Positions 20,580 through 41,538 of a DNA stretch of 47,207 nucleotides are shown here, piece after piece. A program made the position numbers and the translations under genes. The notes below the pieces were generated by a model. The model was given only the letters and a program-made list of their open reading frames with translations. It made no database searches and was not told the DNA's origin. The stretch comes from a virus: IMG/VR virus record IMGVR_UViG_3300005515_000010, positions 1-47,207 of that record; one strand, 5' to 3'. Numbering within the stretch: the first letter of the stretch is position 1; every line of letters starts with the position of its first letter.

Positions 20580-20582
20580 CCC

Positions 20583-20610
20583 GATTCAACGGCGCGGGGG
20601 CCACCCGTAA
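20583..20610 (+). promoter_or_regulatory. Late promoter-like motif A
   Basis: GATTCAA (20583-20589), 17 bases, then GTAA (20607-20610). It is the first of six copies with identical spacing and lies 30 bases before the portal gene group. Interpreted as a late promoter; the recognising factor is unknown. Confidence 0.65.
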
Positions 20611-20611
20611 C

Positions 20612-20632
20612 GCTCTCCCATCAAAGGAGAGC
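20612..20632 (+). other. 5' leader hairpin containing a Shine-Dalgarno sequence
   Basis: GCTCTCC (20612-20618) pairs with GGAGAGC (20626-20632) around a 7-base loop. If transcription starts just after motif A, this hairpin is the very 5' end of the message. The GGAG of the ribosome site for the next gene is in the stem, so it could protect the RNA and modulate translation. Confidence 0.6.
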
Positions 20633-20639
20633 CGCTGGC

Positions 20640-20825
20640 ATGTGCACCCCGAAAGCCCCCGACGTTCCCAGCGTCCCCGAAAGGCAGGCGATGAAGCTGC
20701 CCGACGAAGGGCTCGACCTCACGAAAGACTCGTCGAAGCGCCGCCGCGCCATCATGGCGGGCCTGATCACGTCGCCGCAGGGCGCGCTCGGTAGCCCGAA
20801 CACGGCAAATCCGACCCTCGGCTAA
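20640..20825 (+). CDS. Small virion assembly-type protein upstream of the portal, 61 aa
   Basis: A 61-residue protein starting MCTPKAPDVP and ending AGLITSPQGALGSPNTANPT. The -TSPQG- ending resembles small proteins found before portals in T7-like and BPP-1-like podoviruses (gp7.3-type tail assembly proteins). Its stop shares a base with the portal start. Resemblance is weak; role inferred from position. Confidence 0.6.
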   Translation: MCTPKAPDVPSVPERQAMKLPDEGLDLTKDSSKRRRAIMAGLITSPQGALGSPNTANPTLG

Positions 20826-22456
20826 TGGCGTCTATCCGCCAGGACTGCGAAAACCGCCTCTCCGGGATGAAGACCATCCGGCAGGACTATGAGACGGAAG
20901 CGCGCGATATCGCCCGTTTCGCGCAGCCGGCGCGATCGCGCTTCCTCGCGTCCGAACGCAACAAGGGCACGCGGCGCCGGCAGGCAAACAACCGCCTGCT
21001 CGATCCGCACGGCATCATCGCGTTCCGCACCCTCACCAACGGCATGACATCGGGCCTGTCGTCGGCCTCGTCGCCGTGGTTCACGCTGAAGGTCGACGAT
21101 GCGCTGATGGAAGAGCCCGGCGTCCGCGACTGGCTGAGCGACGTCGAGCAGCGCATGTACGCCTTCCTTGCGTCGACCAACTTCTATGCCGCTGCGAAAG
21201 CCGGCTATGCCGAAATGGGCCTGTTCGGCGGCGAGGGCACGGTGATGGTCGATCACCGCGTGCACGGTGCCGTCTGCCACAGCCTGACCTTCGGCGAATA
21301 CTGGATTGCGCTGTCGACCGCGATGAGCCCCGACACGCTCTATCGCATGTGCCCGATGACGGTGCGGCAGGCCGTCGATTCGTTCGGCACCGCGGTGCAT
21401 CCGACGATCCGCACCAGCTACGACCGCAGCGACTATGAAAAAGAGGTCGAGATCTATCACGCGATCGAGCCGGACGCCGGCGGCCGCTTCGCGTTCCGCT
21501 CGGTCTATTGGGATGCGGGCGACGATCGCAACGACAGCACGCTGAAAATCTCCGGCTATCCCGAGCAGCCGTTCTGGGCGCCGCGCTGGGATGTCAGCGG
21601 AGGCGACGTCTACGGCAACTCGCCGGGGATGGAGAGCCTGCCGGCGCTCCGCGAGCTCCAGTTGCAGACCAAGCGCCGCAACGAGGCGATCGACCTTATG
21701 GTGCATCCCGAGAAGATCGTGCCGCCGAATGTCCGCCTGACCGGCCAGCCGCGCAGCGTCGTGACCGGCACCGGCGTGCTCAAGGAGAACATCATTGTTC
21801 CCTATCAGATGCCCTACCAGGCGGTCGAAGCCATCCGCTCCGAAATCGACAAGTGCAAGGAGCAGGTCGACGCGCTGAGCTATTCCGACCTGTTCAACGC
21901 GATCACCAACATGCGCGGCGTCCAGCCCCGCAACATGGAGGAGATCGCGGCGCGCAACGAGGAGAAGCTGACGCAGCTGGGCCCCGTCATCGAGCGCGTC
22001 AGCACCGAGAAGCTTCAGATTGTCATCGATCGCACCTTCGGCCTCATGGAGCGCGGCCGCCTGCTCCCGCCAGCGCCCGAGGCGCTGCGCGACACCGAGG
22101 TGAAGGTCGAGTTCGTATCGATCCTGACCCAGATGCAGCGCATGGTCGGTATCGGCCAGATCGAGCGCACCGTGTCGTTCGTCGGCAATGTCGCCGGCGT
22201 CGTGCCCGAAGCGGTCGACAAGCTCGATGTCGACCAGATGATCGACGAATATTCGCAGCGCGCCGGCACGCCGTCGAAGATCATCCGCAGCACCGCCGAG
22301 GCGCAGAAAATCCGCGATGCGCGGGCACAGCAGGCGGCGCAGGCCAAGGCCATGGAGGCCGCGCCTGCCGTCCAGTCTGGCGCCGACGCGGCGCGCCTCC
22401 TCAGCGAAACCGACGTCGGCGGGCAACCCCTGCTCGACACGCTGCTCGGCGCATGA
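20825..22456 (+). CDS. Portal (head-to-tail connector), pfam12236 type
   Basis: The 543-residue protein has the features of podoviral portals of the T7 gp8/BPP-1 type: a start LSGMKTIRQDYETEARDIAR, the segment LTNGMTSGLSSASSPWFTLK, a central RWDVSGGDVYGNSPGMESLP and a helical, Ala-rich C-terminus. Twelve copies would form the connector ring at one capsid vertex. Length is typical. Together with Bbp19/Bbp16-like genes after it this points to the BPP-1 branch. Confidence 0.93.
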   Translation: MASIRQDCENRLSGMKTIRQDYETEARDIARFAQPARSRFLASERNKGTRRRQANNRLLDPHGIIAFRTLTNGMTSGLSSASSPWFTLKVDDALMEEPGVRDWLSDVEQRMYAFLASTNFYAAAKAGYAEMGLFGGEGTVMVDHRVHGAVCHSLTFGEYWIALSTAMSPDTLYRMCPMTVRQAVDSFGTAVHPTIRTSYDRSDYEKEVEIYHAIEPDAGGRFAFRSVYWDAGDDRNDSTLKISGYPEQPFWAPRWDVSGGDVYGNSPGMESLPALRELQLQTKRRNEAIDLMVHPEKIVPPNVRLTGQPRSVVTGTGVLKENIIVPYQMPYQAVEAIRSEIDKCKEQVDALSYSDLFNAITNMRGVQPRNMEEIAARNEEKLTQLGPVIERVSTEKLQIVIDRTFGLMERGRLLPPAPEALRDTEVKVEFVSILTQMQRMVGIGQIERTVSFVGNVAGVVPEAVDKLDVDQMIDEYSQRAGTPSKIIRSTAEAQKIRDARAQQAAQAKAMEAAPAVQSGADAARLLSETDVGGQPLLDTLLGA

Positions 22457-22770
22457 CGATGGAAGTGCGCGACCTGCAGGTGCTGCTCGAGCAGGCGGAG
22501 TTCCGCAATTTCCTCTTTGAGGCGATTCAACTGGCTGGCATCTGGGATGTCGCCAACGGGCATGACGGACGTGATCTCGCATTCTTCGAGGGACGTCGAA
22601 GCCTGGGGTTGGATCTACTGCGCCTCGCCGATCAGGGGCAGCCCGACAAGCTCCGCACGCCGGATGCCGTCGCGACCCTCAACGCAGTGCTCATCACACA
22701 TCTGAACCCCCCTTCGCGTCCCAAGGAGAAGACCAATGCGCGCGACCGCTATGACGATATTCCCGACTAA
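22453..22770 (+). CDS. Bbp19-family protein
   Basis: This 105-residue protein carries the domain of Bordetella phage BPP-1 protein Bbp19: EFRNFLFEAIQLAGIWDVAN, then FFEGRRSLGLDLL. Its exact role in the virion is unknown. ATG overlaps the portal stop (ATGA), while its own end overlaps the next gene by 35 bases in another frame. Confidence 0.8.
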   Translation: MTMEVRDLQVLLEQAEFRNFLFEAIQLAGIWDVANGHDGRDLAFFEGRRSLGLDLLRLADQGQPDKLRTPDAVATLNAVLITHLNPPSRPKEKTNARDRYDDIPD

Positions 22771-23629
22771 ATCGACCGCACTGCGCGGTGCCCTGCTCGC
22801 GTCGACCGCGTTCATGTCGCCCGCAGAGCGCGCCATGGGCCGCTTCATGCGCGGGCCCGACGATCATGACGCCGGCGGCGGTGGCGGCTCGGGCGGCGGC
22901 GAAGGCGATGCTGGCGCCGGTGATCAGGGTGCAGGCGATCAGGGCGCCGGCGATGGCAATGACGGCGCCGCCGATGGTGGCGATGCCGGTGCGGGCGATG
23001 GCGCCTCGGGCGACGACGACGGGTCCGGCGGTACCGCGCTCGGCGACGGAAGCGGCGAAGGCGATGACGATGGCGCCAGCGGCGAGGGTGAAGGCGAAGG
23101 CGATGGTGGCGCCGCGGAAGGCGCACCCGACGCTTACGACCTGACGGTCGACGGCGTCACGCTCGATGCCGAGCTCGTCGCCGAGGCCGACCCGATCCTT
23201 CGCGAGCTCAACCTGTCCAACGACCAGGCGAAGACGCTCGTGCCGATGGCGCAAAAGATGATGGATCGGGCGGTCGACGCGACCGTCAACGACATCGTCG
23301 CGCGCGGCAATCAGCAGCGCAAGGAATGGCTCGACGCGGCGAAAGCGGATCCGGAGATCGGCGGCGCCAAGTGGGACGAAACCATGCACGTCGCCGCCCG
23401 CGGTCTCGATGCGCTCGGCTTCGTCAAGGGCGACGAGGCCAAGAATATTCAGGCCCATCCGTTCCGCCTCGCGCTGGAATCGACGGGCTTCGGCAATCAC
23501 CCCGACATGATCCGCCTGTGCGCCAAGCTGGGCGAGCTCGTCGGTGAGGACGGTGATTTCGTGCGGGCGGATGCTTCGGCGCCCGGCGCGAAAGATGATG
23601 TGGCGAAGCGTCTCTATCCCAACGATTAA
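22736..23629 (+). CDS. Scaffolding protein-like, acidic low-complexity
   Basis: The 297-residue protein has a Gly/Asp/Ala low-complexity region (about residues 38-130) with almost no hydrophobic residues and a helical C-terminal half (AKTLVPMAQKMMDRAVDATV). Position between portal and capsid gene, acidity and helicity fit a capsid scaffold. AAGGAG lies seven bases before the ATG at 22736. The repeats are imperfect DNA-level GGCGAY-type repeats that could vary by slippage. Confidence 0.75.
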   Translation: MRATAMTIFPTKSTALRGALLASTAFMSPAERAMGRFMRGPDDHDAGGGGGSGGGEGDAGAGDQGAGDQGAGDGNDGAADGGDAGAGDGASGDDDGSGGTALGDGSGEGDDDGASGEGEGEGDGGAAEGAPDAYDLTVDGVTLDAELVAEADPILRELNLSNDQAKTLVPMAQKMMDRAVDATVNDIVARGNQQRKEWLDAAKADPEIGGAKWDETMHVAARGLDALGFVKGDEAKNIQAHPFRLALESTGFGNHPDMIRLCAKLGELVGEDGDFVRADASAPGAKDDVAKRLYPND

Positions 23630-23645
23630 TAAGGGGGAATTTCCC

Positions 23646-24662: not shown

Positions 24663-24669
24663 CGCACCG

Positions 24670-24696
24670 CGGGCGGTGTCGCAGCGGCGGCCCGCC
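24670..24696 (+). terminator. GC hairpin after the capsid gene, possible attenuator
   Basis: GCGGGC (24670-24675) pairs with GCCCGC (24691-24696). No T-run follows. Partial terminators after capsid genes are common in phages, but this one is weak and could simply be GC-rich spacer. Confidence 0.25.
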
Positions 24697-24718
24697 CCGG
24701 TCTTCTAGGGGAAGACAA

Positions 24719-25165: not shown

Positions 25166-25166
25166 C

Positions 25167-25634: not shown

Positions 25635-25657
25635 TTACGCCTCCGGGCGGAAGGGGG

Positions 25658-25690
25658 AAGGGCCGGCCGAGCAATCGTCCGGCCCTTTTT
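25658..25690 (+). terminator. Rho-independent terminator
   Basis: AAGGGCCGG (25658-25666) pairs with CCGGCCCTT (25679-25687) and runs into TTTTT (25686-25690). It is the strongest terminator in the window and closes the head-gene transcript. A late promoter-like motif begins eight bases later. Confidence 0.9.
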
Positions 25691-25697
25691 CGTGCCC

Positions 25698-25725
25698 GAT
25701 TCAAGGCCGCCAGCGAGGACGCTAG
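25698..25725 (+). promoter_or_regulatory. Late promoter-like motif B
   Basis: GATTCAA (25698-25704), 17 bases, CTAG (25722-25725). It directly follows a strong terminator and precedes the next gene by 26 bases, the arrangement expected if it restarts transcription. Confidence 0.7.
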
Positions 25726-25751
25726 GCCGAACCCGTCAAAGGGGAGCATAT

Positions 25752-26054
25752 ATGAAAGCCTTTCGCCCTGTCCCGGCCCGCACGGTCAGTATCGATGTCT
25801 CCGCCGCATCGCAGGCTATTTCCCTCGGCGGCGCGGGTGCTGCCCTTCGCATCGTCAACGACGGTACCGCGACGGTATGGCTGCGCTTCGGCGCAAGCGA
25901 TGTCGTGGCGACGCTTGCGACCGGCTTGCCGATCCGGCCGGGCGTTACCGAGGTGCTGAGTCTCGAAGGCATGGGCGATGAGCCGACGCACGTCGCGGCG
26001 ATCGCAGCCGGCGCTACCGGCAAGATCTATTTCACCCCGGGTTCGGGCATCTAA
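25752..26054 (+). CDS. Hypothetical structural protein, 100 aa
   Basis: A beta-rich 100-residue protein (AALRIVNDGTATVWLRFGAS) of the kind found as small capsid or tail decoration proteins. AGGGGAG-type ribosome site lies before the ATG at 25752. Its stop shares one base with the next start. No specific family. Confidence 0.65.
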   Translation: MKAFRPVPARTVSIDVSAASQAISLGGAGAALRIVNDGTATVWLRFGASDVVATLATGLPIRPGVTEVLSLEGMGDEPTHVAAIAAGATGKIYFTPGSGI

Positions 26055-27928
26055 TGTCCGTCCGGTCTGGCGGTCGCGGCGTCGGTCACGCCAGCCGCAT
26101 CGCTGCGGCGGCGAGCGGAGGGGCACCTACGCCTACGCCCACCCCAACGCCTACACCGACCCCGACGACGTATATCCTGCCGATTTTGGCGGGACAGTCG
26201 AACCATCCGGGCCGCAACCGCGTCTCAACCGACCCTAACGGCACCACGGCCTCGCCGGTCGATCCCAATCCGGAGCTGTCGTACACGCATCCGCGCATCC
26301 GCGAGTTCGGGGGCGACCCGACTTACGGTAACTACCGCACGCTTTCTTACGACATTGTCGAGCCGCACCATCCCGACGGCCTGCAAAGCGGCTATCAGCG
26401 TGTTGGGCCGGGACTCAATATTCTCTATGGCATCGCCGCCGAAAGCGCCGCGTATGAAGTCGTGGCCGTTCCCTGCGCAGTCGGCTCGACCGGCATCCTG
26501 AATGGCGGCTGGCTCTCGAACGCGACGCCCGGCGCTGGGGGCGTCCGCTTCGAGAACATGATCACCCAGGCCAATCTGGCCATTGCGGCGATCGTCGCAG
26601 CGGACCCCACAGCGATCGTCATCCCGCGCCTTTACTGGATCCAGGGCGAGCAGGACGGTGCAGAAGCTCGCGACGGCACGCTCTACAAAAACGCGCTGTC
26701 TGATATCATTGACCGGGCTCGCGCTCGCATCACCGGCGCGACGAACATGGAAGTCATTCTGGGCTCCATGGTGCCGCGCAAGTTCACGCCCTCGGCGCCG
26801 TCGGGCTATGTGGCCGGATATGTGCCGATCAACCAGGCGCATGTCGATCTCTCGGTCGACAAGGCCGGCGTCCGTTACATCCTCGGCCCGGACAATACGA
26901 TCCCTTCGACCAATGCGGCCTATGCGCTGCCGGGCGGTGCGTCCGTCGACGGCCTGCACTATCAGACGCAAATCGCCGCCCGCGAGTTCGGCACCCGCAT
27001 CGGTACCGCGATGGTCGACACGACAGGCCCAAGCGTCACGAATGCGGCAGCGCAAGGCAATTTCGTCAACACGGCTCTCGTCGTCAATCTCGGCCACGAC
27101 GACCCGTTCGGACACGCCACGTTCCACATCACGGGCGGCGCCGACGCCGCGCAGTTCGAGATCAGCGACCGCTATAACTCGCCGAAGCTGCGCTGGGCGG
27201 GCAATGGCACCGGACCCGCTGTCGGCACCTATGCTGTGCAGGTAAAGGCCCGCGATGGCATGGGCAATTACGGCCCGGCGAGGAACTTCTCGGTCGAGGT
27301 TGTGGCCGCTTATGGCGTCGGCGATCAGGGACCGGTGACGCTCACCTCTGTCTATATGGAGGAAGCGTACACCGTCCCGACCAACGGATTTACGCGCACC
27401 TTCAACATCAAGAAGGGCAAAAATCTCTTCTTCTTCGCCGCCTCTTCGGGCGGCAACCGCGACACCACCTTCGCCGTTACGATCAACGGCAACGCTGCGA
27501 CCAAACACATAGGCAACGCCTCCGGCAATAATCTGCAGGTGTGGTCCTTCGATTCCCCGATGGATCAGACCGTCACCATGGCGGTCACCTTCTCGGGTAG
27601 CGGCGGCGTGTTCAACCTGCTGTTCGCCGTGCTCACCGGCAGCAAGGTGGCGCCGGCGTCGACCGACTTCACGGTGTGGGCCTCGGGCGCGAGCCCCCAT
27701 GCATCCGCGTCGATGACAGTCCCGGCAAATGCGCTCACCGTCATGCTCGCGGCGTTCGGCTCGTCGTCGATCACGGGGGCGGGCTCGGGAACGACGCAGG
27801 TTGCCATCGGCGGGACTAACAATCGGTTGGGCCTCTTCTCCCGGTCGACGACGGGCGCGCCGTCCTTCACCTCGGGCGCGACGGGCTTCCGCGGCTTCGC
27901 ATCGCTCGTGTTCGAGAAATCGACGTGA
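26054..27928 (+). CDS. Virion-associated SGNH/sialate-O-acetylesterase-like hydrolase with PT linker
   Basis: After a short N-terminus comes a proline-threonine linker (seven PT units, about residues 25-38), then a hydrolase domain with LAGQSN (nucleophile S49), WIQGEQDG (about 195-202) and DGLHYQ (D299, H302), the blocks of SGNH/DUF303 carbohydrate esterases. About residues 325-420 look like a cadherin-like beta domain and the rest another beta-rich module. At 624 residues, encoded among virion genes, it probably removes acetyl groups from capsule or O-antigen during adsorption. The N-terminal anchor is unknown. Confidence 0.8.
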   Translation: MSVRSGGRGVGHASRIAAAASGGAPTPTPTPTPTPTPTTYILPILAGQSNHPGRNRVSTDPNGTTASPVDPNPELSYTHPRIREFGGDPTYGNYRTLSYDIVEPHHPDGLQSGYQRVGPGLNILYGIAAESAAYEVVAVPCAVGSTGILNGGWLSNATPGAGGVRFENMITQANLAIAAIVAADPTAIVIPRLYWIQGEQDGAEARDGTLYKNALSDIIDRARARITGATNMEVILGSMVPRKFTPSAPSGYVAGYVPINQAHVDLSVDKAGVRYILGPDNTIPSTNAAYALPGGASVDGLHYQTQIAAREFGTRIGTAMVDTTGPSVTNAAAQGNFVNTALVVNLGHDDPFGHATFHITGGADAAQFEISDRYNSPKLRWAGNGTGPAVGTYAVQVKARDGMGNYGPARNFSVEVVAAYGVGDQGPVTLTSVYMEEAYTVPTNGFTRTFNIKKGKNLFFFAASSGGNRDTTFAVTINGNAATKHIGNASGNNLQVWSFDSPMDQTVTMAVTFSGSGGVFNLLFAVLTGSKVAPASTDFTVWASGASPHASASMTVPANALTVMLAAFGSSSITGAGSGTTQVAIGGTNNRLGLFSRSTTGAPSFTSGATGFRGFASLVFEKST

Positions 27929-28020
27929 GGCCGCCGCGCTGCTCGCAGGATCGCTGGGGCATCGAACATATGGTCATTATCGCACTTCTGGTGTTCGCGA
28001 TCCTCCATGTCCCAATATAG
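27925..28020 (+). CDS. Possible 31-residue membrane peptide
   Basis: GTG at 27925 overlaps the esterase stop by four bases and opens a short frame ending with one hydrophobic helix (MVIIALLVFAILHVPI). The coupling is like that of other genes here, but the first fifteen residues are atypical, so translation is uncertain. Confidence 0.4.
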   Translation: MRPPRCSQDRWGIEHMVIIALLVFAILHVPI

Positions 28021-28059
28021 TCCAGTGACATTTTGACGCCGTTGTGAAACAGAAAGCGC

Positions 28060-28794
28060 ATGAACCCGCGCACGCTTAAAGCTGTGGCCAGCACAGTTTT
28101 CACCAAACAGATGTTTCATCAACTTCGCCTAGCCGCGATATCGCACGCCAAGGCGGAAGACGGTATTTGTTCCGCATGCGGCTATGAAGGCAAGTTCGGG
28201 CCTTTTGGCATGCCGGTACGCTCGGGCGTGCAGTGCCCGAAATGCTGGTCTTTGGAGCGTCACCGCCTGCTCGCGCTGGCAATGAAGCGCGACGAAATCA
28301 AGATCGAAGGGCGCGATATCGTCCACTTCGCGGGCGAGTATAGCGTCACCCACATCATTCATTCGAAGAAGCCGGCGCGGTACCGGGTTTCCGAATATGA
28401 AGGCGATCACGGCGATTTGCGGCTCGATATCGAGAATATCGACCTGCCCGACAACTCGCTCGACCTGGTCATTGCGAACCACGTGCTCGAGCATATTGAT
28501 GACCGGAAAGCGCTCGCGGAGATCTACCGTGTGCTGCGTCCCGGCGGTGAGCTCGTCTGCATGTTCCCGATCGTCGAGGGCTGGTCCGAAACTTATGAGA
28601 ACCCCAGCATAACCGATCCGGTCGGCCGCGACCTGCACTTCGGGCAATTCGATCATGTCCGCTATTACGGGCGCGACGTTCGCGATCGCATTCTTGCGGC
28701 CGGCTTCAAGCTTCGCGAAATCACGGCCGAATCCGGCGACGTGCTGCGCCACAGGCTGTGCCGGGGCGAGAAAATCTTCATCGGACTGAAATAG
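28060..28794 (+). CDS. Class I SAM-dependent methyltransferase with zinc ribbon
   Basis: The 244-residue protein has four cysteines in ICSACGYEG (C37, C40) and QCPKCWS (C59, C62), then a methyltransferase-11-type domain with DLVIANHVLEHIDDRKALAE and YRVLRPGGELV. Similar proteins act on sugars or small molecules. Between an esterase gene and the tail genes, with a 39-base gap before it, it looks like an inserted moron that may alter host surface glycans. The substrate is unknown. Confidence 0.75.
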   Translation: MNPRTLKAVASTVFTKQMFHQLRLAAISHAKAEDGICSACGYEGKFGPFGMPVRSGVQCPKCWSLERHRLLALAMKRDEIKIEGRDIVHFAGEYSVTHIIHSKKPARYRVSEYEGDHGDLRLDIENIDLPDNSLDLVIANHVLEHIDDRKALAEIYRVLRPGGELVCMFPIVEGWSETYENPSITDPVGRDLHFGQFDHVRYYGRDVRDRILAAGFKLREITAESGDVLRHRLCRGEKIFIGLK

Positions 28795-28797
28795 CCC

Positions 28798-28825
28798 GAT
28801 TCAAGCGCCGCGGGGGTGGCCTTAC
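28798..28825 (+). promoter_or_regulatory. Late promoter-like motif C
   Basis: GATTCAA (28798-28804), 17 bases, TTAC (28822-28825). The next ATG (28835) is only ten bases away with no Shine-Dalgarno sequence, so a transcript from here would be leaderless or nearly so. Confidence 0.65.
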
Positions 28826-28834
28826 CCCCGCATC

Positions 28835-29464
28835 ATGACCACCGTCGCGCTCTGCAATCAGGCCATGCTCGATCTCGCAGCGCCGCCGATCGCCTCGCTC
28901 AATGAGCCGTCGAACGAAGCGCGCGCCTGCGCCGCGGTCGCGTTCGTCATCATGGACGAATTGCTCGATTGGACCGAGTGGCATTGGACCGAGACCTACC
29001 AGGTGCTCGCGGCCGTGCCGAACGACCGGCCGGCCGAATGGCTCTATTGCTATGCCAAGCCGGCCGACTGCGGCACGCCGATCGCGGTTCGCGGCGTGGA
29101 AGACCCGGCGACCAGTCTGCCCGTCGGCGGTCCCGGCACCTTCCCGCGGCAGAATGCCATGCCGCTGGCCTTCATCCTGGCCGACGGCAAGATCTATACG
29201 AACGTGCCCAATGCGACGCTCGTTTATCATCGCAACGGCAATTTCGTGCTGCCGCCGCTGGTCGCGCGCGCCTATGTCCTCGAGCTCGCCGCCCGCACCT
29301 GCTACGGCATCAAGAAGGACAAGAAGCTCAAGGCCGACCTGATACAGGAGGCCGCGTTCAAGAAGGCGGAGGCGATCGCCGACGAGGCGAACAAGTCGCC
29401 GCGCCGCTCGCCCGAGTATATCAGCGACGCCGAGTTCGCCCGCGCCGGCGTGCTGGATCTCTGA
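28835..29464 (+). CDS. Tail tubular protein A-like (T7 gp11 type)
   Basis: A 209-residue adaptor with the family start (ALCNQAMLDLAAPPIASLNE, then PSNEARACAAVAF) and ending in a helical ALFARAG-like segment. In T7 gp11 forms the ring that joins the portal to the nozzle. It is followed at once by the nozzle gene. No ribosome site is seen before the ATG. Confidence 0.85.
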   Translation: MTTVALCNQAMLDLAAPPIASLNEPSNEARACAAVAFVIMDELLDWTEWHWTETYQVLAAVPNDRPAEWLYCYAKPADCGTPIAVRGVEDPATSLPVGGPGTFPRQNAMPLAFILADGKIYTNVPNATLVYHRNGNFVLPPLVARAYVLELAARTCYGIKKDKKLKADLIQEAAFKKAEAIADEANKSPRRSPEYISDAEFARAGVLDL

Positions 29465-30120: not shown

Positions 30121-31934
30121 TGGGTGTCGCGCGCGCCTATGTCGTCGGCAGCCCCTATAACGGGGTGGAGCTCGCCGAGGTCGATTTCGAGCAGACCGCG
30201 GACACGATGTTCCTCGCGCATATCGATCATGCGCCGGCGAAGCTTGTCCGCGCCGGTCACACCGACTGGCAGTTCATCACCATCACGTTCGGGCCGTCGA
30301 TCGCGGCGCCAGCGGGGGTCAATGCGGTCGCGACAAATCCCAACGTCGACGCAGATAACGACGGTGCCGCCTATTTTCCGCAGACCGACAGCTATGTCGT
30401 CACCGCGGTGAACGACGACACCGGGCAGGAAAGCCGCGCCAGCGCCGAAGATGCGGCGTTCAACGACCTCACGCTCAAGAAGAATTACAACACGATCACG
30501 TGGAGCGCGGTGGCCGGCGCGGGGCGCTATAACATCTACAAGGCGCACAACAGCCAGTTCTTCGGCTATATCGGCACGACCGAGGACTTGGTCTTTACCG
30601 ACGACAATATCGGTCCCGCGCTCGACAAGGCGCCACCGCAGGGCTTCAATCCGTTCGCCGGCGCCGGTGACTATCCGTCGACCGTCACGCTGTTCGAGCA
30701 GCGTCTCCTGCTCGGCCGCACCAAGAATGTTCCCAACGGCATCTGGGGCAGTCGCAGCGGCGGAAGCCAGTTCGAGAATTTCGACCGCTCGCGCCCGCTG
30801 CGCGCCGACGACAGCCTGTCTTTCGCGATCGTCGCGGGCCGCGTGAACGCGGTCGAGCAGATGGCTTCGACGACAACCCTGCTCGCGCTGACCAGCGACG
30901 CGATCTTCACGGTCGACGGCGACGGGAGCGGCGGGGTGCTGACCGCGACCAGCCAGGCGCCGCGCCGCCAGATTGGACGCGGCTCGGCGCGGCTCGGCCC
31001 GCTCGTCGTTGATACCGTCGTCTTCTACCTGACCTCGACCGGGCACAGCGTGCGCACGATCGGCTATAGCTTCGAGATCGATGGGCTGAAGAGCAACGAT
31101 ATCACCATCTTCAGTCCGCACCTGTTCGACGGGCTCGACATCGTCTCATGGTGCTATTCGCAGGAACCGCGATCGCTGATCTGGGCGGTGCGCTCCGACG
31201 GCAAGCTTCTGTGCTTCACATGGGAGCAGGAGCAGAATGTCTGGGGCTGGACGTTCTGCGAAACCGACGGCGAGGTGCAGTCGGTGTGCTCGATCACCGA
31301 GAATGGCGAAGACCGCGTCTATATGATCGTCAAGCGCGCGGTGGCCGGCGTCGACCGGTATTTCGTCGAGCGCATGGCGTCGCATAGCTGGGCCGACCTG
31401 CCCGATTGCTGCTTTCTCGATTGCGCGGTCAGCGGCGAGTTCGACGAGCCGCGCCGCACCTTCACCGGGCTGTGGCACCTCGAGGGGCGCACCGACGTCG
31501 GCGGCATGGTCGATGGCGTGCCGGTGCTCGGGCTCACTGTCACCAACGGCACGGTCACGCTTCCCGCGGAGATCGCGGACGGACGCAAGGTCACCTTCGG
31601 CATTCCGTTCGACGTCTATGTCGAAACGCTCGCCGTGCGCGCGAACATCCCGGGGACTGGCTGGAATATCGCCCGCAATCAGCAACCGGGGCCGATCGCG
31701 CTCACGCTCTATGAGTCGTCGGGCATCTATGCGGGCGAGAGCGAGCGCAACCTCGTCTATCTCAAGCAGCGCGTCGACGAATCCTACGGCGCGCCTGACG
31801 ACCTGATGACGGGCGACTATATCTTCAACAGCGGCAATTACGAGCAGGGCAAGATATGCGTGCATATCAAACAGCTCGCGCCGCTGCCCTTCACCCTGCT
31901 CGGCGCGTTCGTGGATCTCAGCGTCAATGAATAG
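30120..31934 (+). CDS. Tail nozzle (T7 gp12-like), C-terminal part
   Basis: 604 residues continuing the nozzle: VDFEQTADTMFLAHIDHAPA, then KLVRAGHTDWQF, then PSTVTLFEQRLLLGRTKN, then SGGSQFENFD, all typical of the internal part of tail tubular protein B. The ATG shares one base with the stop of the N-terminal part and the reading frames differ by -1. A complete beta-rich body is present, so this is not a decayed gene. Confidence 0.85.
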   Translation: MGVARAYVVGSPYNGVELAEVDFEQTADTMFLAHIDHAPAKLVRAGHTDWQFITITFGPSIAAPAGVNAVATNPNVDADNDGAAYFPQTDSYVVTAVNDDTGQESRASAEDAAFNDLTLKKNYNTITWSAVAGAGRYNIYKAHNSQFFGYIGTTEDLVFTDDNIGPALDKAPPQGFNPFAGAGDYPSTVTLFEQRLLLGRTKNVPNGIWGSRSGGSQFENFDRSRPLRADDSLSFAIVAGRVNAVEQMASTTTLLALTSDAIFTVDGDGSGGVLTATSQAPRRQIGRGSARLGPLVVDTVVFYLTSTGHSVRTIGYSFEIDGLKSNDITIFSPHLFDGLDIVSWCYSQEPRSLIWAVRSDGKLLCFTWEQEQNVWGWTFCETDGEVQSVCSITENGEDRVYMIVKRAVAGVDRYFVERMASHSWADLPDCCFLDCAVSGEFDEPRRTFTGLWHLEGRTDVGGMVDGVPVLGLTVTNGTVTLPAEIADGRKVTFGIPFDVYVETLAVRANIPGTGWNIARNQQPGPIALTLYESSGIYAGESERNLVYLKQRVDESYGAPDDLMTGDYIFNSGNYEQGKICVHIKQLAPLPFTLLGAFVDLSVNE

Positions 31935-32394
31935 CCGGATACGGCTCGAGCTCGCCCTCACCAAGCATGTCGGATCGGTGGCGCGCCGCATGCGCGACAT
32001 CGACCGCCGCGAGTGCGAAGCCTTCGGACATTCGCCGAAACAGGCGCTGCGCGAATCCATCCTCAACAGCGAGCGGGCGTGGACCGCGCTGGTCGACGGC
32101 CGCCCCGAGGCGATATTCGGCGTCGTGATCAACAGCGCGCTGACCGGCGAAGGCGCTCCATGGTTCCTTGGCACCGATATCGTCTGGCAGCATGCGCGCG
32201 CGCTTCTGACGATCGGCCCGTCGATTATCTCCCGGCTGCACGATTCAAGCGAAAATCTGCGCGGCCTAGTCAGCTGTGAGAACGCCGCCGCGCTCCGGAT
32301 GCTGCGGAAATGGGGATTTACCGTAGGGCACGACCGCCAGCGCCATGGCGGGACAGCGTTCTACAAGTTCGAGAAGGTGCGCGACCGTGTGTGA
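31927..32394 (+). CDS. Internal virion protein A-like with GNAT fold (T7 gp13 type)
   Basis: A 155-residue GNAT-like protein (SERAWTALVDGRPEAIFGVV, then CENAAALRMLRKWGFTVGH) in the position of T7 gp13, which shares this fold. In T7 it helps assemble the internal core. The acetyl-CoA binding motif is not obviously intact, so enzymatic activity is doubtful. Overlaps the nozzle gene by 8 bases. Confidence 0.75.
   Translation: MNSRIRLELALTKHVGSVARRMRDIDRRECEAFGHSPKQALRESILNSERAWTALVDGRPEAIFGVVINSALTGEGAPWFLGTDIVWQHARALLTIGPSIISRLHDSSENLRGLVSCENAAALRMLRKWGFTVGHDRQRHGGTAFYKFEKVRDRV
32242..32269 (+). promoter_or_regulatory. Late promoter-like motif F (inside a gene)
   Basis: GATTCAA (32242-32248), 17 bases, CTAG (32266-32269). 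It lies inside the gp13-like gene, 118 bases before the gp14-like start. The fixed spacing matches the intergenic copies, but its coding position makes it the least certain of the six. Confidence 0.5.
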
Positions 32395-32887
32395 GCCGAC
32401 GACCTTGCTGATCGCCTCGGCCGTCGTGACGGCAGCGGGCCAAGGCTATGCCGCGATGCAAGGCGCTGCGGCCTCCCGCTATGAAGCCAAGGTCGCCGAC
32501 CGCAACGCCAAGCTCGAAAACGAGGCAGCCTTCCGCGCCGACGAGAACACGCGCACTGAAGCGCTCGCGCATTACCGGCGCGTCGCGCAGCTGCGCGGCG
32601 AGCAGCGCGTCGCGCAGGCCGCGAACGGCGTGAGCCTCGATTTCGGGTCGGCGGCCGATGTCCAGGACGATACCGAAATGCTCGCCCGCGAGGATGCGAG
32701 CCGCATCTACCAGCAAGGCGCCGAGAAGGTGCGCGGGTTCGACATCAACGCCGCGAATTACCGCTCGAGCGCGAAAGCCTCGCGCAGCGCGGCGAAGGGC
32801 GCACTTATCAAGGGCGCGTTCGACATGGCCGGCACCGCGCTCGGCGCCGCGACGCAGTACAGCAAGATGAGGGCGCGCAGTGCCTAG
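32387..32887 (+). CDS. Virion core protein, T7 gp14-like
   Basis: The 166-residue product (GTG start) has the usual features of the family: MCEPTTLLIASAVVTAAGQG, then ALAHYRRVAQLRGEQRVAQA, then ANGVSLDFGSAADV. In T7 gp14 is ejected and forms the outer-membrane channel. Overlaps both neighbours by 8 bases. Confidence 0.85.
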   Translation: MCEPTTLLIASAVVTAAGQGYAAMQGAAASRYEAKVADRNAKLENEAAFRADENTRTEALAHYRRVAQLRGEQRVAQAANGVSLDFGSAADVQDDTEMLAREDASRIYQQGAEKVRGFDINAANYRSSAKASRSAAKGALIKGAFDMAGTALGAATQYSKMRARSA

Positions 32888-34967: not shown

Positions 34968-34970
34968 GCG

Positions 34971-35315
34971 TCAGCGCCGTCCGAAACTATCCTCGAAAGC
35001 ATCATTGGCCGCCTTTGCTTCCTGATCGATCTGCGCGCGCTCTATCTTGCGGAGACGTGCCTCCGTCTCGCTATTGCGGATTTCCTGTAGAGCGGTGTCC
35101 GTTTCATCGACCGGCGGTGTGACCTCATCGAGTCCCAAGGCGGCGGCAGCGGCTATCGTCTTCTGATTGTGCTCGCTTTCGTCGGCGCGGCTTTCGAGAT
35201 CGGCGACGCGATTTTCCAAGTCCTCGATCTTCGAACGCTGATCGGCGGCTTCCGTGTCATGCTTCGAGCAACCGGCGAGCAGCAAGGGCAGGAGGATCAA
35301 GCGATTCAAGCGCAT
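34971..35315 (-). CDS. Lipoprotein encoded opposite to the late genes, 114 aa
   Basis: On the minus strand ATG at 35315 opens a protein with a short basic N-terminus, a hydrophobic stretch and a lipobox LLAGC (Cys16), followed by a heptad-rich coiled coil (KIEDLENRVADLESRADESE). GGGAG lies seven bases before the ATG. It should be exported and lipidated. Lying against the late transcripts between two ejection genes, it looks like a moron expressed in the lysogen, perhaps blocking superinfection at the envelope. Confidence 0.75.
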   Translation of the reverse strand: MRLNRLILLPLLLAGCSKHDTEAADQRSKIEDLENRVADLESRADESEHNQKTIAAAAALGLDEVTPPVDETDTALQEIRNSETEARLRKIERAQIDQEAKAANDAFEDSFGRR

Positions 35316-35330
35316 CGGCACGCTCCCTAG
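35303..35330 (+). promoter_or_regulatory. Late promoter-like motif E
   Basis: GATTCAA (35303-35309), 17 bases, CTAG (35327-35330). It overlaps the 5' end of the opposite-strand lipoprotein gene and lies 29 bases before the giant ejection gene, so the two units are arranged head to head. Confidence 0.6.
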
Positions 35331-35336
35331 TTTTCC

Positions 35337-35358
35337 GGGGCAACAGACGAGGTGCCCC
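35337..35358 (+). other. Leader hairpin before the giant ejection gene
   Basis: GGGGCA (35337-35342) pairs with TGCCCC (35353-35358) around a ten-base loop that displays GAGG, and the TTG start follows immediately. If motif E is a promoter this is the 5' end of the message, as at motif A. Confidence 0.5.
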
Positions 35359-38300
35359 TTGCCCCCGACCCTTCCCGGACTTGATTATTACGACCAGCGC
35401 TATCGCCAGCGCAAGCCGTCGAATGAACCGATCGCCCGCATCGATCCCGTAGAGGCCGAAATGCGCCGCGAGCGCGACAATCGCACGCGGCTCGACCTCT
35501 TGCTGACCTCCAGCCCCGAGACGGTCGGCCGCGCCACGTCGATCGGCCGAGAGATCGGCGTCTCGCCCCTGCAGGTCGAGGACCGTCTTCCCGAAGCCGA
35601 GCGCGGCCGCGACGTGCGCCGGTTCATGACGATGACGGAACTTTACCCTGCCATGGGTAAATGGGCCGTTGCCAACCCGCGCGGTGCCGCCGCAGCATCG
35701 GACGATTGGAATAGCCTGTCGCTGCTCGGCAAGGCGTGGCGCAGCACCCGCGACACGGTCTCGGGTCTCGGCCCTTCCTTGATGTCGGGCCTCTATACGA
35801 TGGGGAAGAACACCGACAGCGCGATCGGTGCGGTGAGTGACACCCTCGACGCGATCGATCCGAAGCCCGCGATCGCCGGCTTCTTCAGCGACCTGTTTGG
35901 TATCTATACCGGCTATAATCCGAGGCTCGACAAGAGCTACGAGGATGCGCAGAAAATCAAGCTGGACGCGCGCGCCAAGCGGCAGGCGGCGCTCGCCAAG
36001 GCTGCCGAGGAATGGCGCCCGCAATCGACGAGCTGGATCGCGCGCGAACTGCTCGCCGGCACCGAATCGATCCCGATGACGGCGGGCGCGCTGATGACGC
36101 GCAATCCCGAAGGCGCGGCCGGGGTCGTCGGCACCCTCACCGCGGCCGGGGGATACCAGGACGCGCGCGATCGCGGGCTCGATATCGGCTCCTCGCTGGC
36201 CTACGGGGCCCGGCAGGGCACGGTCGAGGCACTGACCGAGAAGATCCCGGCCGCGAAGCTGCTCGGGGACATCGCGGCGCGTTCTCCGCTCGGCAAGATG
36301 GTGCTCAATCAGCTGATTACCGAGATCCCCGGCGAGCAGGTGTCGACCTTGCTGCAGGATTTCGACCAGTGGGTGACGCTCAACCCCGACAAGACGCTCG
36401 GGCAGTTCATCGCCGAACGGCCGGACGCGGCGCGCCAGACGCTTTTGGGAACCCTCGGCGCCGTCGGCACGACGACGACCGTCGTTCGCACAGCCGAAAA
36501 GGTGGTCGACGGAACCGCGATGCTTGCCGCAAAGGCCGGCGAGGCGAAGCGGGCCCAGCGCGAGGGGCAAATCCTCGAGAATGCGGGCGACGCGGCGCAG
36601 AAGTCGAAATTGCGGACGCGCGACCCCGAGGCGTTCGAAACGCTGATGCGCGAGCTCGCCGACGAAACCGGCGCGACCGAGGTCTATATCCCGGCCGAAG
36701 CCATCCAGGAGTATATGCAGTCGGGCGAATTCGACCCTGATGCATGGGCCGATTACGAGCAGGAATCGCTCGAGGCGATGGCGACCGGCGGCGACCTTGT
36801 CCTGCCCGTCGAGCGCGTCCTGACGTCGTTTCCGGGCACGCCCGCATGGGATGCGCTGCGCGACCATATGCGGCTCAGCCCGGGCGGCATGTCGCGGTTC
36901 GAGGCCGAATCCTTCAACATGGAAATGGCGGACCTGCGCCAGACGATGGAAGAACGCGCCGCGGCGATCGACGAATTCGACCGGGAAATGATGCAGGGCC
37001 GCGAGGCGCTGATCACCGACGTCGTCGAAAAGCTTCAGTCGGCCGGCTATACCCCGTCGGTCGCGCGCACGCAGGCCGAGCTCGTCGCCGCACGGTACGA
37101 AACCCGCGCCATGCGCAAGGGTCAGATGCTCACGGGCAAAGAGTTCAACGACGTGCAGGTCGTGCAGATACTCCCCGAGCAGCTGGCGCTCCGCCAGAAA
37201 GACGACGGGCTCGATCGCGTCATCAATGTCATGCGCCGCGGCGCGACGGGAGCGAAGCAAGGTCCGTCGCTCCTCGAGTTCATCGCGAAACGGGGCGGTA
37301 TCGACGATCCAGGCGGCGATATCGCCTCGATGGGCGGCGACACGTGGCACCGGCAGGCGCGGTTCCGCAAGCGGCTGATCCGCGCGACGGACAAGGGGCA
37401 GGCCAGCATGATCGGCGCCGCGCCGCGCGATACCGCCCCCGAGGACGTGCTCCGCGCTGCAATCGATGCCGGATATTTCCCCGAGCTCGCCGGGAGGGAG
37501 GCGGGCACCTATGACGATGCGATCGACAACAATACCCTTCTCGACGCGATCGGCGCCGAGCTTCGCGGTGACGCGCGCTATGCCACCGAGACCGACACGA
37601 CGCTCAGCGATGCCGCGCTCGAGCTCGCCACCCTGATCTCCAACGAAGGACTCGACCCGTCGACCGCGACGCGGCGCGAAATCCGCAATGCCGTGTCGAA
37701 CTATTCGGCGCGCAGCTTCAAACAAAGCGGTGACGCCAAGGCGCCACGCGGCCGCATCGTCTTCCCGAGCGAGGAATTCACGGGCGCAGCTATCATCGAA
37801 CTGTTCAAGGCGCGCAATCTCAGCACCTTCTTGCACGAAACCGGGCACCTCTGGCTCGAGGAACTGCGGTCGGACGCGCTGTCGGAAGATGCGACCAACC
37901 GCCTGAAGGACGATTGGGGGCAGGTGCAGGAGTGGTTCGCGGCGAACGGCCACCCGATCGAGAATGGCGTCATCCCCGTCGAAGCGCACGAAATGTGGGC
38001 GCGCGGCGTCGAACAATATCTGATGGAGGGCAAGGCGCCCGTCCCCGCGCTCCGCAGCATCTTCGAGCAGTTCCGCGCCTGGCTGGTCGGCATCTATCGC
38101 AGCGTGAAGGCGCTGCGCAGCCCGCTGACGCCGGAGATCCGGCGCGTCATGGATCGGCTCATCGCCACCGACGATGATATCGCCCTCGCCGCGCGCGAGC
38201 AGTCGGTGCATCCGCTGCTGACCGATTCGTCGGACATGACGGCCGCCGAGTTCGCGGCCTATCAGCGCCTGACCGCCGACGCGCGTATAGAGGCCCGCGG

Positions 38301-41300
38301 GCAGCTGCTCGACAAGACGGTGCGCGATATCCGCGCGCGAAACACGAAACGCTATAGGGACATCGCCGCCGAGCTCCGCGACGAGATCGAGGCCAGCGTC
38401 GCCGACCGCCCCGCGTTCCGCGCGATTGACGCCATGAAGGCAACGCCTATCGATCGCCGCTATGTCGTCGACTATATGGGCGACGAGGCCGCGGTGATGA
38501 TGCCGCGCAACGTGCCGCCGCTGATGCGGAACGGCGGCGTGCATCCCGACACGATCGCCGAGCAGGCCGGGTTCCCGACCGGCCGCGACATGGTCGACGC
38601 GCTCATCGAGCTCGAGATTGCGCACCGCACCGCACGCGAGGAAGGCGATCAGCGCGGGATGCGCGAACGCATCATCGACGAAGAGCTCGATATGATGATG
38701 CGCGATCGGTACGGCGAGCCGCTGACCGACGGCAGCATCGAACGCGAGGCGATCGCCGCGGTGCATAACGACCTGCAGGGCGAAGTCATCGCCGCCGAGA
38801 TCCGCGTGCTCGGCCGGAAGTCGGGCCAGCCCCCGACGCCATACACCGCCGCGCAGGAATGGGCGCGCCAGAAGATCCGCAGCGGGCTGGTCAGCGTCGA
38901 GGCGATGCCCGGCGCGCTTCAGCGCTATGCCCGTGCCTCGCGCAAGGCCGCACGCGAAGCCGAGGCGGCGTACCTCGAGCGCGACATCGAGGGGGCGTTC
39001 CGCGCGAAACAGGCGCAGATGCTCAACAATGCGCTCTATTCCGAAGCGAAGAAGGCGCACGAAGAGGTCGACGCGGCGCGCAACCGCCTTCAGAAAATCG
39101 CATCGCGCGCGGTGATGAAGAGCGTCGATCAGGATTATCTCGAGCAGGCGCACGCGCTCCTCGAGGCGGTCGACATGCGCCGGCGCAGCCAGAAAGGAAT
39201 CAACCGGCAGGGCAAGTGGGAGGAATGGGCCTCGCAGCGCCAGGCCGAAGGCTATGACATCGTCGTACCGTCATCGTTCGAGGCGACGATATCGAAGAAC
39301 AACTGGACGCGACTCACCGTCGAGCAGCTGCTCGGTCTCGACGAGGCGGTGCGCCAGATTATCCACCTCGGCCGGCTCAAGCGCGAATTGCAGGACGGGC
39401 AGGAAAAGCGCGAGTTCGAGCTCACCGTGACGCAGGCGGTCGAGGCGGTCGCCCAGCTGCCCCAGCGCCCGCCGAGCGACCTCATGGAGCCGTCGCGCTG
39501 GGATGCGATCAAGTCGAAGGTCGCAGCCGCGGACGCGGCCCTGCTCAAGATGGAGACGGTATTCGACTGGCTCGACAGCGGCGACAGCAACGGCATCTTC
39601 AACCGGATCGTTTTCCGGCCGCTCGTCGACGCACAGGAGAATGAGCGCGTTCGCATGGCGGATATTCTCGGCCAGCTGCGCACCGCGCTCGAAAAGGTAC
39701 CCGCCGCGACGCTCAAGGGCTGGTCGGACAAGATCACCGCGCCGGAATTGCTCAACCGCGAGACGGGCAACCCCTTCGTCATGACCCGCGAAATGGTCGT
39801 GGCGATCGCGCTCAACACCGGGAACCGTGGCAATTTTGACAAGCTGCTCGGCGGCTATGGCTGGTCGGAGCTCGGCGTCACCGCCATGCTCGACCGCGTG
39901 ATGACGCAGGAAGAATGGACCTATGTCCAGGAGGTCTGGGATATCATCAATAGCCTGTGGCCCGACATCGAAGCGATGGAGAAGCGGGTCAACGACATCG
40001 CGCCGGAGAAGATCGAGGCGGTGCCCGTGCAGACGAAATGGGGCGTTCTGAAGGGCGGATACTATCCGGTCGTATATGATCCGCGCCGCAATTATGAGAG
40101 CGAGAGCTATGCGGCGAAGTCCGACAGCCTGTTCGAGGGCATCTATACCCGCGCCACGACGCCGAAGGGGTTCACGAAAGAGCGCACCAACGTCGAGCGT
40201 CCGATCCATCTCAGCCTTGGTGTCATTCACCGGCACGTCGGCGAGGTGATCCACGACCTGACGCACCGCGAGGCAATCATGCAGGCCGACAAGTTCCTGC
40301 AGGCGCGGCCGGTGATGAAGGCGGTCGACGACAGCCTCGGCCCCGAGATCCGCAAACAGTTCCGGCCGTGGCTTCAGCGCATCGCGAACGAATGGGCCTA
40401 TGACCGCGCCGGGCAGGCGGGCATCGAGGGCTTCATCAAGAAGGCGCGCCTCAACGCGACGATCGTCGGCATGGGATATCGGGCGACGACGATTCTGCTC
40501 CAGGCGGCCGGCTACTCGAACAGCATAGAGCGCGTCGGGGCGCGCTGGGTGCTCCCGCGCCTGAAGGACGTCGGCAACCCGACCGCATGGAATTTCGTCC
40601 TCGAGAAGTCGAAAGAGGTCGCGGCGCGCATGGACACGCTCGACCGCGATATTCGCGACAATGTCCGCAAGGCGGCCGGGCAGCGCAGCCTCAGCGCGGT
40701 CAAGAAGTTCGCGTTTCACGGCATCGGCTATATCGACCGTGTCGTCGTCATCCCGACGTGGCTCGGCGCCTACGACAAGGCGATCGCCGAAGGCATGGAG
40801 GATTCGGACGCGGTCTATGCCGCCGACAAGGCTGTGCGCCAGTCGCAGGGCGCCGGCGCGGCGAAGGATCTCGCCGCGATCCAGTCCGGCCGCGGGACGT
40901 TCGGCGAGGCCGCGAAGCTGCTCACCATGTTCTATTCGTACATGTCGGCCTTCTATCAGCGCCAGCGCAGCTTTGCCCGCGACGTGCGAGGCGCGAACCT
41001 GTCCGACGCGCCAGGGCTGATCGCGCGGGCGTGGTGGCTCTTCGTCGTGCCGCCGCTGCTCTCGGAACTCCTCGCCGGCCGGACGCCGGACGATGACGAT
41101 GATGAGACGTGGGCCGAATGGTCGATCACGAATATCATGTTTCAGATTTTCGGTCCGATCCCGGTGCTTCGCGATATCGGCCCGACGCTGTGGGCCAAGG
41201 CGACCGATCGCCCGACCTTCGGTTATCGGTTCACGCCGGCGCAGGGCGGCATCGAAAGCGTCATCAACGTCGCGTCGGATCTCGGCAAGATCGCGCGGGG

Positions 41301-41478
41301 CGAGGAGACGAAGCGCGCGACGCGCAACGCGATCGAGACGACGGGCTATTTCACCGGCCTGACGACCGGACAAATGGGCGTCGCGGCGCAGTTTCTCGTC
41401 GATGTCGGTTACGGCGACGCCGATCCGGACGGCATCGGCGAATGGTGGCGCGGGCTCACGACGGGAAAGACCGAATAG
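35359..41478 (+). CDS. Giant ejection/internal virion protein with HExxH metallopeptidase-like motif
   Basis: About 2,039 residues, in the place of T7 gp16 (1,318 residues) but larger. Residues about 815-845 read NLSTFLHETGHLWLEEL (H826, E827, H830), a zinc-metallopeptidase HExxH motif, with HEMWARGVEQYL some 45 residues on as possible third ligand. Long charged coiled-coil segments fill the middle, and the C-terminus (about 1,700-2,039) has hydrophobic stretches that could meet the inner membrane. The TTG at 35359 was preferred: GAGG lies six bases upstream, and the open frame before it crosses a promoter motif. ATG at 35461 is the alternative. Confidence 0.8.
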   Translation: MPPTLPGLDYYDQRYRQRKPSNEPIARIDPVEAEMRRERDNRTRLDLLLTSSPETVGRATSIGREIGVSPLQVEDRLPEAERGRDVRRFMTMTELYPAMGKWAVANPRGAAAASDDWNSLSLLGKAWRSTRDTVSGLGPSLMSGLYTMGKNTDSAIGAVSDTLDAIDPKPAIAGFFSDLFGIYTGYNPRLDKSYEDAQKIKLDARAKRQAALAKAAEEWRPQSTSWIARELLAGTESIPMTAGALMTRNPEGAAGVVGTLTAAGGYQDARDRGLDIGSSLAYGARQGTVEALTEKIPAAKLLGDIAARSPLGKMVLNQLITEIPGEQVSTLLQDFDQWVTLNPDKTLGQFIAERPDAARQTLLGTLGAVGTTTTVVRTAEKVVDGTAMLAAKAGEAKRAQREGQILENAGDAAQKSKLRTRDPEAFETLMRELADETGATEVYIPAEAIQEYMQSGEFDPDAWADYEQESLEAMATGGDLVLPVERVLTSFPGTPAWDALRDHMRLSPGGMSRFEAESFNMEMADLRQTMEERAAAIDEFDREMMQGREALITDVVEKLQSAGYTPSVARTQAELVAARYETRAMRKGQMLTGKEFNDVQVVQILPEQLALRQKDDGLDRVINVMRRGATGAKQGPSLLEFIAKRGGIDDPGGDIASMGGDTWHRQARFRKRLIRATDKGQASMIGAAPRDTAPEDVLRAAIDAGYFPELAGREAGTYDDAIDNNTLLDAIGAELRGDARYATETDTTLSDAALELATLISNEGLDPSTATRREIRNAVSNYSARSFKQSGDAKAPRGRIVFPSEEFTGAAIIELFKARNLSTFLHETGHLWLEELRSDALSEDATNRLKDDWGQVQEWFAANGHPIENGVIPVEAHEMWARGVEQYLMEGKAPVPALRSIFEQFRAWLVGIYRSVKALRSPLTPEIRRVMDRLIATDDDIALAAREQSVHPLLTDSSDMTAAEFAAYQRLTADARIEARGQLLDKTVRDIRARNTKRYRDIAAELRDEIEASVADRPAFRAIDAMKATPIDRRYVVDYMGDEAAVMMPRNVPPLMRNGGVHPDTIAEQAGFPTGRDMVDALIELEIAHRTAREEGDQRGMRERIIDEELDMMMRDRYGEPLTDGSIEREAIAAVHNDLQGEVIAAEIRVLGRKSGQPPTPYTAAQEWARQKIRSGLVSVEAMPGALQRYARASRKAAREAEAAYLERDIEGAFRAKQAQMLNNALYSEAKKAHEEVDAARNRLQKIASRAVMKSVDQDYLEQAHALLEAVDMRRRSQKGINRQGKWEEWASQRQAEGYDIVVPSSFEATISKNNWTRLTVEQLLGLDEAVRQIIHLGRLKRELQDGQEKREFELTVTQAVEAVAQLPQRPPSDLMEPSRWDAIKSKVAAADAALLKMETVFDWLDSGDSNGIFNRIVFRPLVDAQENERVRMADILGQLRTALEKVPAATLKGWSDKITAPELLNRETGNPFVMTREMVVAIALNTGNRGNFDKLLGGYGWSELGVTAMLDRVMTQEEWTYVQEVWDIINSLWPDIEAMEKRVNDIAPEKIEAVPVQTKWGVLKGGYYPVVYDPRRNYESESYAAKSDSLFEGIYTRATTPKGFTKERTNVERPIHLSLGVIHRHVGEVIHDLTHREAIMQADKFLQARPVMKAVDDSLGPEIRKQFRPWLQRIANEWAYDRAGQAGIEGFIKKARLNATIVGMGYRATTILLQAAGYSNSIERVGARWVLPRLKDVGNPTAWNFVLEKSKEVAARMDTLDRDIRDNVRKAAGQRSLSAVKKFAFHGIGYIDRVVVIPTWLGAYDKAIAEGMEDSDAVYAADKAVRQSQGAGAAKDLAAIQSGRGTFGEAAKLLTMFYSYMSAFYQRQRSFARDVRGANLSDAPGLIARAWWLFVVPPLLSELLAGRTPDDDDDETWAEWSITNIMFQIFGPIPVLRDIGPTLWAKATDRPTFGYRFTPAQGGIESVINVASDLGKIARGEETKRATRNAIETTGYFTGLTTGQMGVAAQFLVDVGYGDADPDGIGEWWRGLTTGKTE

Positions 41479-41485
41479 GCCAGCC

Positions 41486-41513
41486 GATTCAAGCGGCAGC
41501 GCGCCAGCCTTAC
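41486..41513 (+). promoter_or_regulatory. Late promoter-like motif D
   Basis: GATTCAA (41486-41492), 17 bases, TTAC (41510-41513), in the gap between the giant ejection gene and the tailspike gene. Downstream bases TTACCCC match motif C closely. Confidence 0.7.
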
Positions 41514-41517
41514 CCCG

Positions 41518-41538
41518 ATCCGCACGGCAATTGCGGAT
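41518..41538 (+). other. Leader hairpin before the tailspike gene
   Basis: ATCCGCA (41518-41524) pairs with TGCGGAT (41532-41538) around a 7-base loop, the same 7-bp stem and 7-base loop seen after motif A. The tailspike ATG is eight bases further on. Confidence 0.55.

Follow-up and report, generated by a model that had tools for sequence, protein, structure and literature searches.

Phage activators that work at the place of the -35 element have been described. Phage GIL01 encodes a truncated LexA homologue, gp6, which sits over the -35 element of a late promoter and thereby activates it (PMC6182141), and at the middle promoters of phage T4 the MotA box replaces the -35 element (PMC6755090). 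In the staphylococcal Ltr/RinA systems the gene of the late regulator lies just upstream of the packaging genes, and the late genes are transcribed from one promoter right behind it (PMC13123087). Here we describe conserved sites among the virion genes of a temperate phage. We consider it likely that these sites are the late promoters of temperate T7-tail-type Sphingomonadales podophages, that they consist of a CGATTCAA box, a reduced -10 element and a transcription start 12 nt past the T of a conserved TA (T+12), and that they are served by a winged-helix activator together with the host RNAP-sigma70. From the sequence we infer that the sites act as promoters, where transcription starts, that the winged-helix protein binds the box and that sigma70 is used.

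The stretch of DNA analyzed, called the window here, is 47,207 nt long. It is a temperate phage that carries an integrase, a CI-like repressor, a replication gene, terminase and a T7/epsilon15-like head-tail connector (portal). The virion genes further include tail-tube proteins, internal virion proteins at the gp13, gp14, gp15 and gp16 positions and a protein at the tailspike position. Relatives were found among IMG/VR records and in genomes of Novosphingobium, Sphingomonas and Croceibacterium. Since these relatives sit in genomes of Sphingomonadales, an order with soil and water bacteria, the host very probably belongs to that order. Among cultured phages, even the nearest have portals less than 40% identical. 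Outside the virion genes, a protein with a GapR DNA-binding domain (11899-12168; PF10073, E 7e-33) also occurs in G001, G010, G012 and G013. The early operon carries two DNA methyltransferases (12178-14312 and 14595-15833), mostly missing in the relatives, and a PAPS-reductase-like protein (phrog_12882); the leftward operon carries a HIRAN-domain protein (9529-10116) and a DHH phosphoesterase-like protein (7065-8021). ARAGORN places a tRNA-Met at 11162-11240 on the plus strand inside the repressor ORF (10140-11471, minus strand), which is possibly a false call.

The motif and its positions in the window

A pattern scan of both strands finds GATTCAA-N18-TA six times in the whole window, at 20583, 25698, 28798, 32242, 35303 and 41486, all on the plus strand. 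A preliminary description had given the same six copies as GATTCAA-N17-NTAN, and its coordinates and spacing are exact. It had proposed a comparison with shuffled sequence, and 100 dinucleotide shuffles gave a mean of 0.11 matches and a maximum of 1. Irrespective of the TA, GATTCAA occurs in 7 copies compared to 4.7 expected. The base directly 5' of the box is C in all six sites. With a weight matrix trained on these sites, they score 30.7-34.6 and the next match in the window 10.3; because the matrix is self-trained, it is this gap of about 20 bits and not the absolute score that counts. The features are as follows.

17173-17628, plus strand: candidate late activator, a 151-aa winged-helix protein, proposed from its co-occurrence with the motif; last gene before terminase
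18109-20413, plus strand: genes of the small and large terminase subunits, downstream of the candidate activator and upstream of promoter 1
20582-20620, plus strand: putative late promoter 1; box C-GATTCAA, TA at -12/-11, predicted +1 at 20620; box at the corresponding place in 13 of 13 relatives examined
22523-22530, plus strand: box without -10 TA, in frame (GCG ATT CAA) between the portal and capsid protease genes; conserved half-site
25645-25690 (approximate bounds), plus strand: intrinsic terminator 5' of promoter 2; conserved in G001 and G010 at the corresponding place
25697-25735, plus strand: putative late promoter 2, behind the terminator; heads an esterase/methyltransferase cassette that extends to 28794
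28797-28835, plus strand: putative late promoter 3; predicted +1 is the A of the tail-tube ATG (28835-29464), leaderless; geometry alike in most relatives
32241-32279, plus strand: putative late promoter 4, within the gp13-like gene and upstream of the gp14-like gene (32345-32887)
35302-35340, plus strand: putative late promoter 5, upstream of the giant gp16-position gene with a probable TTG start at 35359
41485-41523, plus strand: putative late promoter 6, upstream of the tailspike gene (41546-43630) and lysis genes

The gene map agrees with the earlier statement that five copies are intergenic and that the copy at 32242 lies within a gene, here the gp13-position internal virion gene at 31927-32394 (phrog_308). 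Promoter 1 is followed by a Shine-Dalgarno sequence (AAAGGAG), a small gene (20640-20825) and the portal gene. The gene groups behind the copies are those named before, except that the supposed decoration group is a cassette of a SASA esterase and a methyltransferase. The copy at 25698 indeed directly follows a terminator, beginning a few bases after the stem and TTTTT, although this terminator is absent from the output of a simple terminator scanner. The late cassette (25698-28794) is specific to the window and comprises a 99-aa ORF, the SASA-type esterase of 624 aa and a methyltransferase-like protein of 244 aa. In G001 and G010 the tail-tube promoter comes right after the terminator; the window has the cassette and its own promoter copy in between. 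Judged by this comparison, late promoters would also come along with new cargo.

Conservation and promoter geometry

The sites of the window are real and conserved. For synteny we used the window together with 12 related phages, taken from IMG/VR or found as prophages of Sphingomonadales, with portals 59-83% identical; the box itself was found in relatives with a portal identity as low as 51%. In about 25 records, partly fragments, GATTCA-N19-TA occurs 78 times in the forward and once in the reverse orientation, in a site list that was selected by the pattern itself. A control with the reversed pattern gave 1 match in 16 whole records. The TA lies at an offset of exactly 19 in the relatives, with a few at 18. 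All substitutions within the hexamer are at background level in this set, and its third base is T in 78 of 78 sites. Thus, the scan of related prophages that had been suggested earlier shows the box kept at syntenic gene positions in 13 phages with a bias to the forward strand. The consensus GATTCAA holds in the window; in the relatives base 7 is mostly A, and one clade carries GATTCAC instead.

In the 13 phages with mapped genes the syntenic sites lie before the small gene and portal, before gp14 (inside gp13) and before the tailspike gene. Further ones are found at or just 5' of the tail-tube gene and, in nearly all 13, upstream of gp16. At a minority of syntenic sites the TA is at 18 or absent, and the box after the portal is syntenic in the 13 phages without any TA. 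No other hexamer is as enriched 19 bases before TA in the relatives. The next-ranking ones, among them CAATCC and GGGCAT, are mostly homologous coding sequence and were set aside. GATTCAG-N19-TA in G004, G005 and G008 (3 of the 78) lies in the coding sequence for the wing of the winged-helix protein and was taken as coincidence.

Two copies are embedded in coding sequence. Promoter 4 reads GAT TCA ... CTA in the gp13 frame, where TCA makes up 2% of Ser and CTA 0.9% of Leu codons. The half-site after the portal reads GCG ATT CA[A/C] in 13 of 13 relatives, while ATT accounts for 11% of the Ile codons of the window. Retention of such rare or fixed codons reflects selection acting on the DNA. About 75 nt 3' of GCG ATT CAA, the frame at 22456-22770 also contains GGG and AGC CTG GGG codons that do not differ in any of 13 relatives out of 13, a further conserved DNA element. 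In relatives that lack the motif (L039:9735-9760, L020:963-990) the sequence before the small gene and portal has GCAATCC-N5-GCAATCCTAG in common, which may be another kind of activator box combined with the same CCTAG -10.

The position of the start was read from the 54 non-redundant sites. An ATG lies exactly 12 nt past the T of the TA in 15 of them, compared to a mean of 0.72 at other offsets, and these 15 are spread over several gene families, namely tail tube, gp16 and, in L021, the small gene upstream of the portal. The other 39 sites have A at T+12 in 18 and C at T+11 in 23 cases, a pyrimidine/purine start signature. A Shine-Dalgarno-like sequence is found between TA and ATG in 1 of the 15 leaderless-type sites, and after the start in 18 of the 39 others. 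We therefore infer a transcription start at T+12. A +1 at this position would make the TA -12/-11 and put the box at -38 to -31, in the place of a -35 element. RpoD motifs of Caulobacter start at -34 to -37 (PMC4287350). The -10 element appears minimal: only T-12 and A-11 are invariant, T-7 is not conserved, and C is often found at -14. With such a start, many of the late mRNAs would lack a leader; in Caulobacter leaderless mRNAs are common, with 375 described (PMC4117421).

Candidate readers of the box

The preliminary description had implied a host polymerase with a phage activator, and strand bias, spacing, synteny, start signature and the lack of any phage sigma factor or polymerase in our searches support this. 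It had also stated that the phage has no single-subunit RNA polymerase. Scans of the long ORFs against the PHROG and Pfam RNAP families were empty, in agreement with that statement, which rests on these scans because a PF00940 search, although empty in the phages, was empty in the controls as well. Two activators had been proposed, of which the 151-aa winged-helix protein goes together with the motif throughout the family. The 149-aa CII-like protein has relatives in the two closest phages only and was rejected, as was the CI-like lysogeny repressor, which is confined to two close relatives.

When every ORF of the window was compared with the 13 relatives, the winged-helix gene was the sole non-virion gene present in all motif-bearing, near-complete records that cover the region. 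It is missing from G013 and L039, which are motif-free. L039 and L041 are decayed prophages, and L041 retains one site. The link is one of guilt by association, with few independent losses of the motif (G013 is only distantly related, and L039 is decayed). AlphaFold predicts a winged helix (block pLDDT about 80-93 over residues 1-90); the protein also has a C-terminal part. Structure and profile searches point to DNA-binding domains of the LexA/MarR type; hhalign against the LexA N-domain gave a probability of 76.8, and Pfam LexA_DNA_bind matched one orthologue below the cut-off. Searches with the single sequence retrieved close relatives only, and no match was found in cultured phages (50,697 phage records). 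The protein is about 30% identical across the family, whereas the box is invariant. The wing reads HHRAR in the GATTCAC clade and is YQRFR-like in the others. This covariation with base 7 comes from one event in one clade, and base 7 varies within phages too. Taken together, the winged-helix protein probably reads the box. G008 (L063/L064) encodes a second, divergent winged-helix paralogue (oriented 2721-3119, E 6e-8); this phage has seven GATTCA-N19-TA matches.

Other readers have to be weighed against the winged-helix protein. The box contains GATTC (-37 to -33) in every promoter, an instance of the CcrM site GANTC, and host GcrA with sigma70 might read it at methylation-dependent promoters. 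GcrA is present in all 7 host genomes, the hosts carry a RAMA-domain protein, a domain also found at the end of CcrM, and promoter-proximal GANTC sites are functional in Caulobacter (PMC4287350, PMC3667746). However, GAATCA, GACTCA and GAGTCA do not occur in place of GATTCA and the bases flanking GATTC are constrained too, so that the reader must see more than GANTC; moreover, the motif is hardly used in host genomes and GcrA was not found in the phage records. GcrA as the direct reader is therefore very unlikely and was rejected. A host regulator with a large regulon was discarded as well, because in hosts that carry a prophage the motif is almost missing elsewhere in the genome: full copies lie mostly inside the prophage (3 of 3, 3 of 3 and 5 of 6 copies, for example), and no general host use was seen in a sample of 200 genomes of the family, except for a few genomes with repeat families. 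The very short -10 element and the fixed spacing of the bipartite signal, which is typical of alternative sigma factors, would fit an undetected phage specificity factor that is distinct from the winged-helix protein, such as a divergent sigma factor or a protein that binds RNAP, and that reads box and TA directly. Yet sigma70 region 2 and 4 domains gave only sub-threshold fragments in the 12-13 phage records, on which grounds a phage sigma factor was rejected, and the comparison based on the window gave no further non-virion gene common to all motif-bearing phages. Such a factor seems distinctly unlikely. Strongly conserved short DNA elements may also serve as lysogeny-repressor operators or as packaging, recombination or processing signals, and the conserved copy at 22524 without TA would suit such a role. 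This is highly improbable, since the motif is constant while the CI-like repressor is not, the distance to the start-site signature and leaderless ATG is constant, and the acquired cassette is preceded by a separate copy.

GANTC sites are rare, at 0.14-0.35 of expectation in the phages and about 0.33 in sampled host DNA. As the host DNA is similarly depleted, this alone is no proof of phage-specific selection, but it means that each late promoter holds a site otherwise avoided. The distant, motif-free G013 (L074-L076) has 4 GANTC sites in 49 kb compared to about 218 expected, an approximately 50-fold depletion. Late promoters gated by DNA methylation, with an activator that tells methylated from freshly replicated DNA, would be an unlikely extension. 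If true, the methylated prophage would not express its late genes, which would be transcribed solely from phage DNA that has just been copied, and the cell-cycle methylation of the host would act as a replication clock for them. The CcrM site within the box makes this possible tie to host DNA methylation testable.

With the winged-helix protein as the preferred reader, the following sequence of events can be proposed. Early transcription would finish with the winged-helix gene, as the last early gene, and terminase. The winged-helix protein would then bind CGATTCAA at -38 to -31, substitute for the -35 element and recruit or stabilise host RNAP-sigma70 at the weak -10 (T-12 A-11), either in the manner of a class II activator or through sigma appropriation. 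All virion gene groups would be turned on together after early expression, in many members with tail-tube and gp16 mRNAs that lack a leader and elsewhere with leadered ones that often bear a Shine-Dalgarno sequence. Candidate activator, box, predicted start and regulon would form a complete and testable late-gene control circuit for this phage family. The late-gene programme of uncultured phages might thus be readable from sequence, with leaderless virion-gene mRNAs as a prediction, a further candidate for small phage activators that take over the -35 region, and the motif as a tag for spotting such prophages.

Comparison with known systems

The earlier comparison with T7 class III promoters holds for the layout, with copies before the late groups of a T7-like virion module, but not for the mechanism, as no polymerase was found. 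T7 promoters are compact sites of a single-subunit RNAP, while the signal described here is bipartite with a spacer of free sequence. The candidate regulator gene upstream of the packaging genes recalls Ltr/RinA. Here, the first motif promoter comes after terminase, and the candidate has no match to the Ltr/ArpU family. Ogr of phage P2 is similar to Mu C; its sites lie further upstream and it belongs to a protein family different from the candidate. Mu C is likewise one phage protein that serves several dispersed late promoters with the host RNAP (PMC4461284), again from a different family.

T4 MotA/AsiA shares with our putative promoters the activator box in place of the -35 element, a retained -10 and many promoters of one class (PMC6755090). 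In contrast, T4 uses the co-activator AsiA and a full -10. Apart from the winged-helix gene, the comparison gave no non-virion gene of the window conserved across the family that might play an AsiA-like role, although a variable or very small protein could escape such a comparison. The T4 promoters are middle promoters, whereas those described here would drive virion genes of a temperate phage. In the papers that a direct literature search on phage late promoters listed, the string GATTCAA does not occur, nor did we find the combination of dispersed virion-gene promoters, invariant box and leaderless starts described.

By analogy, GIL01 gp6 is the nearest functional parallel. At P3 of this Bacillus thuringiensis phage, a small LexA-like protein of a temperate phage lies over the -35 element and works with the host polymerase (PMC6182141). 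GIL01 differs in having one promoter with a site centred at -43.5, compared to four to seven promoters here, and phage and host are unrelated. The candidate described here is weakly LexA-like and known from its sequence and predicted structure, and it may act over the -35 region much as gp6 does.
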